Part shown: positions 36,162 through 43,400 of the stretch, one piece after another
Layout: the number at the start of each line of letters is the position of its first letter
Numbering within the stretch: the first letter of the stretch is position 1
Source: Desulfuromonadales bacterium
GTDB taxonomy: Bacteria > Desulfobacterota > Desulfuromonadia > Desulfuromonadales > Geopsychrobacteraceae
Length of the DNA: 64,000 bases
Direction: 5' to 3'
Assembly: GCA_016931615.1 (NCBI GenBank)
Contig: JAFGEL010000065.1
Coordinates: forward strand, 1-64,000
Made by a program: the position numbers and the translations under genes
The notes under the pieces: generated by a model
Seen by the model: only the letters and a program-made list of their open reading frames with translations
Told to the model about the DNA's origin: nothing
Databases searched by the model: none

Positions 36162-36228
36162 ACCATCCTCACTAAGTCTGTTATTTTATTATCAGCGAGT
36201 GAATATGGCTAAGACAAGTGTTGAAGGC

Positions 36229-36300
36229 AAAAAATAGCCCCGCGTCAGGAGGGAGAACACGAGGCAAAAATCTTTCTTGAGAGAGAGTTTACTTACCTTT
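36229..36300 (-). ncRNA. Candidate small RNA A (about 72 nt) with anti-Shine-Dalgarno terminator loop
   Basis: TTGACT-N16-TATAAT at 36334..36307 (minus); terminator GCCTCGTGTT-CTCCCTCCT-GACGCGGGGC-TATTTTTT; no supported ORF; contains CTCTCTCTC. Confidence 0.6.
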
Positions 36301-36306
36301 AAGGCA

Positions 36307-36334
36307 ATTATACTCAGATAAAAATTAAAGTCAA
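36307..36334 (-). promoter_or_regulatory. Sigma-70 promoter of candidate small RNA A
   Basis: Minus strand TTGACT-N16-TATAAT. Confidence 0.65.
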
Positions 36335-39101: not shown

Positions 39102-41624
39102 ATGTTACGTTTGAATCTGCATAGAAAAGTCCTTGGGGCCTTCCTTCTCTTATCCCTGGTTCCCCTGGGATTTCTGCTGTTCAATTCACAACACAGTTTA
39201 CGCCTGGTTGAAGGGATTCTGCGTCAAAGAACGACTGAAGCGTTGGATTCCCAGGCGGCCAGAGCCCTTGAACAAAGGGCGCAAATGGTGGCGCTTCAGG
39301 TTTCCTCTTTTCTCCATGAGGTTGAAGGTGATCTTCTTGATTTAGCCCTGTTGCCCCAAGCAGAAGAGGTGTATCTCGATTTCTGCTGGAGCCATCAGCG
39401 TGACCTCTGGTTTCGTCGCGGAACCAACCAATCTCCGATCGAAGTTCGTGAAAAGATGCTTCTCTACAGCGAACTGACGTATATCGATTCTTCAGGAATG
39501 GAAAAACTACGTGTCGTAGATGGCCGTCCCAGTCACCAGTACCGTAATGTCGCTGACCCCCGACAGACAACTTACAAGCATGAAACCTATTTTCAGCAGA
39601 CGGCCAAACTCATCAAGGGTCAGATCTGGGTTTCACGCCTGAATGGCTGGTATGTCAGCCGCGATGAGCAGTTGAGAGGCGCGGAAACGCCCCTTGAAGC
39701 CGTTCAGGGGACACCCTACCGCGGTGTGATCCGTTTCGCCACGCCGATATATCGCGATGAGCAATTTCAAGGGATTGTGATGCTGTCCCTCGATCACCGC
39801 CATCTGATGGAATTTACCCAGCACATCAACCCGATTGGCGACGAAGACGTGGTTTTTCCATCTTATGCCAGTGGTAACTATGCCTTCATGTTTGATGATG
39901 ACGGGTGGACGATTGCTCATCCGAAATACTGGGATATACGTGGTTATGACTCCACGGGAAAACTGGTCCCGGCTTATACCGAACAAACTCCAGAGGAGGA
40001 CATTCGGGCAGGTAGAATTCCTTTTAATTTGCTGGCTGCCGGATTTATTCACCCCAACTATCCCAAAGCGGCCGAGGCCGTCAGGCTGGGCAAGTCGGGC
40101 GTTCTGGACACGACAAATATCGGCGGTTCTAATAAAATCATGGCCTTCGCCCCGATTCGTTACGCCCAGGGGGTGTATGAACAATTCGGGGTTTTCGGTG
40201 GTATCACTATCGGGGCGGAAATCGATCAGTTTCACCAGCCTGCTGTTGCGGCTGCCGAGTTGATCGAGCATGAAATCAATAATTACCTGATGCAGTCCTG
40301 GCTGGTGATCTCGTTGACGATCTTTTTTGTTGTCGCTTCAGCGTATATGTTGTCGAACAGTATTGTTCGTCCGCTGCTGTCATTGACGGAGGGGACGCGA
40401 AGAATGATTCACGGACACATGACTCCCCAGGTCAAGGTGCGCACAAACGATGAAGTCGGAGCCCTGGCGGAATCCTTCAACAATATGGTTGATGAGCTCA
40501 ATCAGCGACGTCAGAGATTGCTGCAAACTCTTCAGGCCTTGCGTCTGTCGCGTAAAGAAATTATCCGTGAGCGTAATTTCAAGGATACGGTCTTTGAAAA
40601 TATAGAAACGGGGCTCATGACCTTTGATGCCGAACGTAAAGTCACATCGGTCAATGGACCAGCCTGCCAGATCCTGCACGTCAGCAGGCCGGGCAAGAAT
40701 TGTGACTGGCAGACTTTGCTGGCCGACTGGCCTGAGCTGCTTGATGTGCTGAGAGACTGGTTTTCCGCCAGTGAAGCCGGGGAGGAGAGGACGTTCCGCC
40801 TCTATGTGCCCCTGGAAAGGCAGGGGCAGCATCTGACCTATCGCATTGCCATGTTCCCCCTGAGTTTCCGTCAGCAGGACGGTTGGCTGGTGACTATCGA
40901 AGATTTAACCGAACGGGTCAATATGCGTCAGCAGATGGCGCGCATGGACCGTCTGGCGTCACTGGGGCGGATGTCGGCGGGGATTGCCCATGAAGTACGT
41001 AATCCGCTGACAGGTGTCAGCCTGCTGCTTGATGAACTGCATGATCGTCTGCTGGGGCAGGAAACGGACCAGCAGCTGATTCGGCGCGCGCTTGGGGAGA
41101 TTGAACGGCTCGAAGCTCTCGTCAACGAAATGCTGCATTTTTCGACCATGCCGGAACCACAGCTCGCTATGGGACAGATTGCCGAGGTCATTCAGGACTC
41201 GCTCTTTCTTCTGCGTAAGCAGTGCCAGAGGCAGAAGGTCGTTCTGGTCGAAAAGATAGCGCCGGATCTTCCTGATATTATGATGGATGCGGACCGCATT
41301 AAGCAGGTGCTTCTTAATCTTTTCAACAATGCCCTGGAAGCGATGCCCCAGGGAGGGGAATTAACCATCCATGTCCGGTCGTTAAAAGATTCTATCCAGA
41401 TAGAAATCAAAGATACCGGCGTGGGGATTGCTGAAGAACGACTGCCGTTGATTTTTGAGCCGTTTTTTACCAGCAAAGGTCAGGGGACCGGTCTCGGCCT
41501 GGCCATAAGTTACAATATTATCTCTGATCATGGCGGTGAGCTGAGTATCAACAGTAAACTCGGTTCTGGAACCATTGCTGTGATCAGCCTTCCCATCAAA
41601 TCTTATGGCGAAAATAAGCCATGA
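39102..41624 (+). CDS. Sensor histidine kinase (periplasmic sensor, HAMP, PAS-like, HisKA, HATPase)
   Basis: [67 protein letters not shown]. Confidence 0.95.
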
Positions 41625-41750
41625 GCTAAGGATCTCCCAGGTATCTTCGCAGCCATTTTTTTCGAAATGGCTAAAAATCACCATTTTTCTTGAGAATTTT
41701 AAAAATTTCTGATTTTATCTGTGCATATCTGACGTGGCTGGAGTTGACGC

Positions 41751-43121
41751 ATGGAAAAAATCCTGATTGTAGATGATGAAGCTTTTATTCGTGAAAATCT
41801 TGAGCGAATTATTGCCGAAGATGGCTACCGACCGCTATCGACTGACGATCCGGAGCACGCTATTCGGATTGTCGCGGAGGAAGACATCAGCCTGGTGCTG
41901 CTTGATCTGAATCTCGGCAGCAGTAGCGGTCTCGATGTGTTACGCTCAATGCGTGAGGTTGATCCTGATATTCTGGTCATCATCATTACCGGTTACGGAA
42001 CGGTAGAAAGTGCTGTTGAAGCATTAAAAATCGGGGCTTACGATTACATCAAAAAGCCTTTCAAGGCTGACGCCATTCACCTGATTGTTAAACTGGCCCT
42101 TGAAGCGCAAAATTTAAGACGCAAAGTTCGGCGCCTGTCAAAAGACAGCGACGGCATCAATATGGTTGGCAACAGCCCGGCGCTGTTACAGATTTTTCGC
42201 CAGATCCGTGAAGTGGCGAAACATGAATCGGCAACTGTTCTGATCACCGGTGACAGTGGTACAGGAAAAGAACTTGTGGCCCAGGCTATCCATAATTTGT
42301 CTCCCCGAAATGAGAAGCCCTTTGTTGAAATCAACTGTGGTTCGTTGCCTTACAATCTCCTTGAATCTGAGTTGTTCGGCCATGAACGGGGCGCTTTTAC
42401 CGATGCAAAAAACCGCAAGATCGGGTTGTTTGAAGAAGCTGACCACGGGACAATTTTTCTCGATGAAATCGGTGAAATGGACTTGAGCCTGCAGGTCAAG
42501 CTGCTGCGCGTTCTGGAGGATCGCAAAATCCGCCGGCTCGGCGGCAATCGTAATATTGACATCAATGTTCGTATCGTCGCAGCGACCAATGCTGAACTGA
42601 AGGAAGCGATTGAGCATAAGGAATTTCGTGAAGATCTCTATTACCGTCTAAACGTTTTTCCCATTCATATCCCCCCGCTCAGAGAACGGCGGGAGGATAT
42701 CCCCATTCTGCTTGAGTATTTCCTGCAACGTTTCAGCAAGGAATTCAACCGCTCGATGAAGGGTTTCAGCCGTGACGCACTCGATCTGATGATGCGCTAT
42801 CATTGGCCGGGAAATGTGCGTGAGTTGCGTAACGTCGTTGAGCGGATCTGTATTATGCACAACGTTGAAAAAATCCAACCGGCTCAGCTCCCCAGAGAGA
42901 TCTGGGGGGAGGCACCCCAGAGTGAAATGCCGTTTAACTGTGAAATTCCCCCCGAAGGGATTGTCCTGGATGATGTTGTCTGCCAGGTCGAAAAAGAACT
43001 GGTTGAAAAAGCGTTTAAGATAACCGGCGGTAATGTTGCGAAGACAGCACGTCTCCTCAATGTGCCCCGTGGAACTCTGCGGTATAAATTGGAAAAGTAT
43101 CAGTTGGGTCCGGATCTTTAG
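41751..43121 (+). CDS. Sigma-54-dependent response regulator (NtrC family)
   Basis: Receiver KILIVDDEAFIRENL; GDSGTGKELVAQAIH; ESELFGHERGAFTDA; C-terminal Fis HTH. Confidence 0.97.
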   Translation: MEKILIVDDEAFIRENLERIIAEDGYRPLSTDDPEHAIRIVAEEDISLVLLDLNLGSSSGLDVLRSMREVDPDILVIIITGYGTVESAVEALKIGAYDYIKKPFKADAIHLIVKLALEAQNLRRKVRRLSKDSDGINMVGNSPALLQIFRQIREVAKHESATVLITGDSGTGKELVAQAIHNLSPRNEKPFVEINCGSLPYNLLESELFGHERGAFTDAKNRKIGLFEEADHGTIFLDEIGEMDLSLQVKLLRVLEDRKIRRLGGNRNIDINVRIVAATNAELKEAIEHKEFREDLYYRLNVFPIHIPPLRERREDIPILLEYFLQRFSKEFNRSMKGFSRDALDLMMRYHWPGNVRELRNVVERICIMHNVEKIQPAQLPREIWGEAPQSEMPFNCEIPPEGIVLDDVVCQVEKELVEKAFKITGGNVAKTARLLNVPRGTLRYKLEKYQLGPDL

Positions 43122-43289
43122 CCATGCGGCAGCAAAGTGTCAGCATGGCTTATTTCCGCCACAATGCGCCATTTTTGAATATTTTTACTCAAGCAATGAA
43201 TGGTTATGCTCTTCCAGGAAACAGCTCAATGCCCGATGTGAAGGGGAAAACACCAGTTTATCAGGCCTGTCGGATTAAAGTCTGAAATT

Positions 43290-43303
43290 GGTACAGGGTT
43301 TGC
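43290..43303 (+). promoter_or_regulatory. Candidate sigma-54 promoter
   Basis: TTGGTACAGGGTTTGCTTT: GG at 43290-43291, N10, GC at 43302-43303. Confidence 0.55.
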
Positions 43304-43314
43304 TTTAGGTTGAA

Positions 43315-43400
43315 CAGAATATACACAGCTCTCTCTCGTCCAACTTGATATTTGGACTTTAGCCCCGTTCCCGCCTCCTCCGGAACGGGGCATTTTTTTT
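43315..43400 (+). ncRNA. Candidate small RNA B (about 86 nt) with anti-Shine-Dalgarno terminator loop
   Basis: Begins 12 nt after the sigma-54 GC; CTCTCTCTC at 43329-43337; hairpin GTCCAA-cttgatat-TTGGAC; terminator GCCCCGTTCC-CGCCTCCTCC-GGAACGGGGC-ATTTTTTTT. Confidence 0.5.
43362..43400 (+). terminator. Strong plus-strand intrinsic terminator with CGCCTCCTCC loop
   Basis: Perfect 10-bp stem followed by A then T8; no T tract on the opposite strand. Confidence 0.95.

Follow-up and report, generated by a model that had tools for sequence, protein, structure and literature searches.

Does the short stretch that follows a sigma-54 activator gene in this Desulfuromonadales genome hold an RNA gene of its own, or does it only end the mRNA of the regulator? 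The stretch belongs to a window of 64,000 nucleotides (the whole piece of DNA that was analyzed), in which a sensor histidine kinase (39102-41624, forward strand) with a dCache-like sensor region and HAMP, PAS, HisKA, and HATPase_c domains is followed by an NtrC-type response regulator (41751-43121, forward strand) with Response_reg, Sigma54_activat, and HTH_8 domains. A sequence-only reading had proposed a sigma-54-dependent regulatory RNA downstream of these genes, and as far as sequence goes, the proposal is supported, with promoter, proposed enhancer, and RNA conserved in relatives. We consider it quite probable that positions 43315-43400 are a free-standing sigma-54 small RNA (sRNA) gene activated by the regulator, whose product would be a trans-acting anti-Shine-Dalgarno (anti-SD) repressor tied to carboxylate uptake.

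The predicted small RNA gene

The predicted gene (43315-43400, forward strand, about 86 nt) was delimited by covariance model matches, fold, and covariation, and its conserved core of two hairpins spans about 43327-43400. A single-stranded CU-rich stretch, CUCUCUCUC (43329-43337), similar to stretches in many relatives, leads into hairpin 1 (43338-43357), in which GTCCAA (43338-43343) and TTGGAC (43352-43357) form a 6 bp stem around an 8-nt loop. The intrinsic terminator (43362-43400) has a 10-bp stem (43362-43371 and 43382-43391), an anti-Shine-Dalgarno loop, CGCCUCCUCC (loop positions 43372-43381, CGCCTCCTCC), and a T8 run (43393-43400). The fold of the RNA at 43315-43400 was calculated at -27.6 kcal/mol, with a z score of -5.2 against dinucleotide shuffles. 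All of these elements, together with the GG-N10-GC motif upstream, had been placed correctly to the base by the sequence-only reading. Its description of some 86 nt lacking a supported open reading frame (ORF) also agrees with our direct reading of 43315-43400, in which no ATG-initiated ORF was found, and the same inspection confirmed that no T tract follows the terminator hairpin on the opposite strand. With a conserved structure outside coding frames and a U-rich terminator tail, the RNA, whose transcription is predicted, shares these features with trans-acting Hfq-type sRNAs.

Covariation and distribution of the RNA family

Among 38 distinct regulator-linked sequences, changes on both sides were seen in 15 of 16 base pairs (all six pairs of hairpin 1 among them), and standard pairs make up 94% of the pair cells. 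The covariation score was 0.508, compared with 0.17 for shuffled and at most 0.09 for slid alignments; the alignment was fitted to the covariance model and thus leans towards the structure, with both controls falling far off. Strong covariation of both hairpins was reproduced on a second sequence set, and this implies an RNA-level constraint on 43315-43400. On the covarying stems, the terminator loop CCUCCUCC, an anti-Shine-Dalgarno sequence containing CUCC, is nearly invariant, and a CUCC loop occurs in few of about 40 strong terminators outside the family (404 kb). Because it lies within the terminator, the loop could owe part of its conservation to termination.

When 41 genomes were searched at the DNA level, 11 relatives gave matches to the last 70 nt. 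Within the order, a covariance model and then a refined one recovered the family from about 96 of 136 genomes; in the remaining class it was found in 8 of about 143 genomes, and in the remaining phylum in 6 of about 290. By these sequence matches, the predicted family is confined to the order. A pattern scan of named genomes gave three true relatives (metagenome-assembled genomes labelled Deltaproteobacteria and Geobacteraceae, and Desulfuromonas sp. BM304), while the other five matches look like chance. One genome, G057, carries four family matches of equal score (40.8 bits) on contigs C20, C35, C54, and C87, perhaps a repeated or mobile copy. At the Rfam gathering threshold, no match to the small RNA was found in the 64-kb window or at 11 loci. 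The family is new and absent from Rfam; its proposed mode of action is that of known anti-SD sRNAs, and the arrangement of its control is new.

Promoter and predicted enhancer

A sigma-54-type promoter, TGGTACAGGGTTTGCT, lies on the forward strand at 43289-43304, with GG at 43290-43291, GC at 43302-43303, and 10 bases between (TTGGCAC-N5-TTGCW), and predicts a transcription start at about 43315. The match alone is not significant (for TGGYRYN5TTGC, 1.5 chance matches are expected per 64 kb and 1 was observed), and its weight comes from conservation. The promoter TTGGCAYN5TTGCT was present at 39 of 91 orthologous regulator loci, its TGG and TTGC being fixed by the search pattern itself, and the reverse strand of those loci, used as a control, gave 2 matches in 408,542 nt. 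Flanking bases that the search did not require are kept as well, with T after TTGC in 39/39 and T before TGG in 37/39. Conservation of the GG and GC positions had been set beforehand as a point on which the proposal could fail, and it held: in 12 genomes, spread over several families, the RNA is immediately preceded by a sigma-54 consensus, with RNA lengths predicted at 82-122 nt. Both promoter and RNA are absent from many of the 91 regulator loci. The RNA copies of G004 and G092 lack a promoter, score weakly, and resemble relics. In genus g34, the RNA has no sigma-54 site and a sigma-70-like TTGCTG-17-TATAGT instead, so sigma-54 control is not universal. The loci of this genus and its kin (L149-L154, L156) combine the sigma-70-like promoter with an extra 5' hairpin, GTTGCTAAGCC..GTCAGCAAC, in an apparent promoter switch.

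The predicted activator site is an exact TGGC-N8-GCCA dyad, TGGCTTATTTCCGCCA (43146-43161, forward strand), which lies 143 bp 5' of the promoter with no mismatches, within the 80-250 bp upstream range taken for an enhancer-type site. Dyads with at most one mismatch occur at about 27 of 38 promoter loci, against roughly 0.1 expected per locus. They are found about 85-240 bp 5' of the promoter at recurring distances (-102, -112, -131 to -137, -143 to -146, -158 to -160, -221 to -224, and -239 to -241). Promoter and dyad are both missing 3' of most regulators that lack the RNA and the transporter described below, and among 19 strong sigma-54 sites in the genome of the window, an exact dyad lies upstream only at that of the small RNA. 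Right after the regulator stop codon, at approximately 43120-43151 on the forward strand, a hairpin (AGCCATGC...GCATGGCT) overlaps the dyad and might weakly terminate the regulator mRNA. At four loci in relatives (L104, L109, L069, and L145 of G100, G028, G015, and G029), the dyad falls within an apparent hairpin-plus-T-run terminator of the regulator gene, and one DNA element there seemingly serves as both terminator and enhancer.

Further dyads were found on the forward strand at the end of the kinase gene (TGGCGAAAATAAGCCA, 41606-41621) and, about 62 bp away, at the kinase-regulator junction (TGGCTAAAAATCACCA, 41668-41683). Since 28 of the 91 loci have an exact dyad at this junction, some of them in genomes that lack the RNA, the junction dyads suggest a site of the regulator's own, with predicted autoregulation. 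Paired junction dyads recur in many relatives.

Gene order and the carboxylate transporter

Clear regulator orthologs were found in about 91 genomes, and layouts were read from the 3.6 kb downstream of each. The order regulator, dyad, sigma-54 promoter, and RNA is seen in the genome of the window (G000) and in G008, G009, G015, G016, G028, G029, G040, G100, G101, G131, and G135. In about 16 genomes, the regulator, dyad, and promoter are followed by a DASS carboxylate transporter gene (TIGR00785, PF00939) and the RNA comes directly after its stop codon, so that the small RNA is the 3'UTR of the transporter mRNA in these relatives. The transporter gene can also lie elsewhere: in G009, a DASS gene away from the regulator is served by a sigma-54 promoter of its own and ends in a plain terminator, and the RNA with its own promoter stays beside the regulator, while G005 and G012 have no RNA at the regulator locus and a relocated DASS gene that has a promoter and dyad and lacks the CCUCC loop. 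The genome of the window, about 89% complete, yielded no DASS gene. The layouts are intermixed on the unrooted regulator tree, with 15 changes, which indicates that transporter and RNA separated several times, through either loss or insertion of the transporter.

Besides the kinase-regulator junction, a dyad search of the genome of the window located a dyad upstream of a TRAP operon, dctP-dctP-dctQ-dctM, whose sigma-54-like site, ATGGCATCATCTTTGCC, follows the start of the dyad by 134 nt. Finding this operon led us to abandon the initial idea of a regulator that acts on the sRNA alone.

Proposed mechanism and alternative explanations

From the promoter, dyad, RNA structure, gene order, and separation from the transporter, all established by sequence comparison, we infer the following mechanism. 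The response regulator would bind the dyad at 43146-43161 and activate transcription of 43315-43400 by sigma-54 RNA polymerase. The exposed CCUCCUCC loop of the terminator would then pair with Shine-Dalgarno sequences of target mRNAs, perhaps joined by the CU-rich 5' stretch, and Hfq would probably assist at the U8 tail; Hfq was found in the genome of the window and in 30 of 31 genomes searched. The signal may be a carboxylate because the other predicted targets of the regulator are carboxylate-type transporters, the substrate being read from the transporter family only. Because the two-component system would govern carboxylate uptake, through DASS in relatives and the TRAP operon in the genome of the window, the RNA probably dampens competing functions in the presence of the preferred carboxylate. 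An anti-SD loop pairs with many mRNAs. A pairing check over the 56 ORFs of the window gave favorable but generic matches to several Shine-Dalgarno regions and no specific target among them. Silencing of the kinase or regulator mRNA, as by NfeR1, was not favored, with -5.4 kcal/mol at the kinase start region and a middle rank for the regulator.

The sequence-only reading had itself offered a simpler account, in which the hairpins do no more than end the regulator mRNA as its terminator (3'UTR) and no separate RNA gene exists. The terminator does lie 240 nt 3' of the regulator stop codon on the same strand, and two relatives have a degraded copy behind the regulator without a sigma-54 promoter in the interval. 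This account nonetheless leaves unexplained the intervening promoter and dyad, conserved in 12 genomes, and a near-invariant CCUCCUCC loop that a terminator does not need. The same RNA also ends transporter mRNAs elsewhere, and in several relatives the regulator gene seemingly has its own hairpin and T-run ahead of the promoter, and we find the account very unlikely. Hardly probable, in our estimation, is that the RNA is mainly a stability or termination element in the 3'UTR of the transporter mRNA, left over without function where the transporter was lost. Its position directly 3' of the DASS gene in many relatives would fit such an origin, but several lineages have copies without the transporter that retain the promoter and dyad as well as the loop and both hairpins; the degraded look is found in two promoterless copies, and the CCUCC loop is missing at the DASS genes that lie elsewhere in G005, G009, and G012.

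A different kind of doubt concerns how a sigma-54 sRNA would act. Anti-SD pairing is proposed from the loop motif only, and the RNA might instead bind a protein or serve as a sponge for another RNA. The loop is, however, complementary to the Shine-Dalgarno sequence GGAGG, and RNAs already known to carry loops of this kind are translational repressors (PMC10746234). The multiple GGA hairpins of a CsrA-type sponge were not seen, and we regard this option as unlikely. The free-standing, anti-SD sRNA remains our preferred reading. A wider hypothesis extends it: one order-wide family may switch between transporter 3'UTR and free sRNA gene by repeated transporter loss behind a shared promoter, and may be one of several anti-SD sRNAs per genome (in the 3'UTR of a Lut-like operon and as sigma-70 genes) within a carbon-priority network. 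Here the chances seem to us evenly balanced.

Other RNAs in the window and genome

A second anti-SD-type RNA was noted in the window at 36228-36312 on the reverse strand, with CUCUCUCUC, a terminator loop containing CUCCCUCCU, and a TTGACT-16-TATAAT promoter (36307-36334). It lies 67 nt upstream of a DUF255/YyaL-like gene and could be an sRNA or a leader; L050, with three in tandem, and L058 also have similar RNAs beside a yyaL-like gene. Elsewhere in the genome, an anti-SD terminator RNA (G000:C56:4008-4067; L063, 1501-1560) forms the 3'UTR of an operon encoding LUD and Fe-S/cysteine-rich-domain (LutB-like) proteins, a layout repeated in G010, G013, and G014, and a similar RNA is found 3' of the same genes in G012. 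On the same contig, a free-standing paralog (G000:C56:14186-14242; L065) has a sigma-70-like TTGACA..TATAAA promoter and the loop CCCCCUCCU. Terminator hairpins with C7-8 UCC loops (CCCCCCCUCC) at G000:C72:15315, C39:17104, and C95:106687 possibly represent a second loop type of the family. The window also contains a TPP riboswitch (RF00059, 74.8 bits) at 203-309 on the reverse strand.

Comparison with known systems

The locus adds a computationally well supported RNA family, absent from Rfam, in metal- and sulfur-reducing bacteria for which little sRNA work was found, and it connects an anti-SD RNA with a sigma-54 two-component system. The intermediates (transporter with RNA, RNA alone, the two separated, and degraded copies) bear on how 3'UTR sRNAs become independent genes. 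In the open-access literature, we found no description of an anti-SD RNA controlled by a sigma-54 promoter plus enhancer, none of an RNA alternating between 3'UTR and free gene behind the same promoter type, and no papers on sRNA and RpoN in Desulfuromonas.

NfeR1/alpha-r14 ("cuckoo") of the Rhizobiales carries CCUCCUCCC in three hairpins and represses ntrBC; it is transcribed from a sigma-70 promoter, activated by LsrB, repressed by NtrC, and independent of Hfq (PMC10746234). The RNA described here shares with it near-invariant anti-SD loop motifs of the CCUCCUCC type, variable stems, and a link to an NtrC-family two-component system. It differs in having two hairpins and one clear loop motif where NfeR1 has three of each, in its sigma-54 promoter and enhancer, and in that the local kinase and regulator mRNA is not a favored target. 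Membership in alpha-r14/cuckoo (RF02344) was rejected at 16.1 bits against a gathering cut-off of 58.8.

The Burkholderia double-hairpin RNAs (RF02278; ncS03/05/27/62) are CU-rich and multi-copy, with predicted targets in carbon metabolism (PMC5688073). Likewise, our family has two hairpins, unpaired CU-rich regions complementary to ribosome binding sites, and several homologous copies per genome. The RF02278 consensus comes from different bacteria, and its CU-rich parts occupy the 5' tail together with hairpin 1 rather than the terminator loop. Membership in this family (Betaproteobacteria toxic sRNA) was also rejected, at 24.1 bits against a cut-off of 50.

The GlmY and Qrr genes encode sRNAs and are transcribed from sigma-54 promoters under the control of an NtrC-type response regulator, the same pairing as is proposed here, although no similarity of sequence or structure to them was found in Rfam, and targets and partners are other ones. 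The best NCBIfam matches of the regulator and kinase are AtoC (457 of 714 bits) and AtoS (297 of 646 bits), both below the equivalog cut-off, and an AtoS/AtoC identity was therefore rejected; no solved structure resembles the sensor region of the kinase by sequence. In DctB/DctD, a membrane kinase and a sigma-54 activator control dicarboxylate transport. The system described here likewise places a kinase and a sigma-54 activator over a predicted carboxylate transporter, DASS or TRAP, and differs in that its output would include an sRNA.
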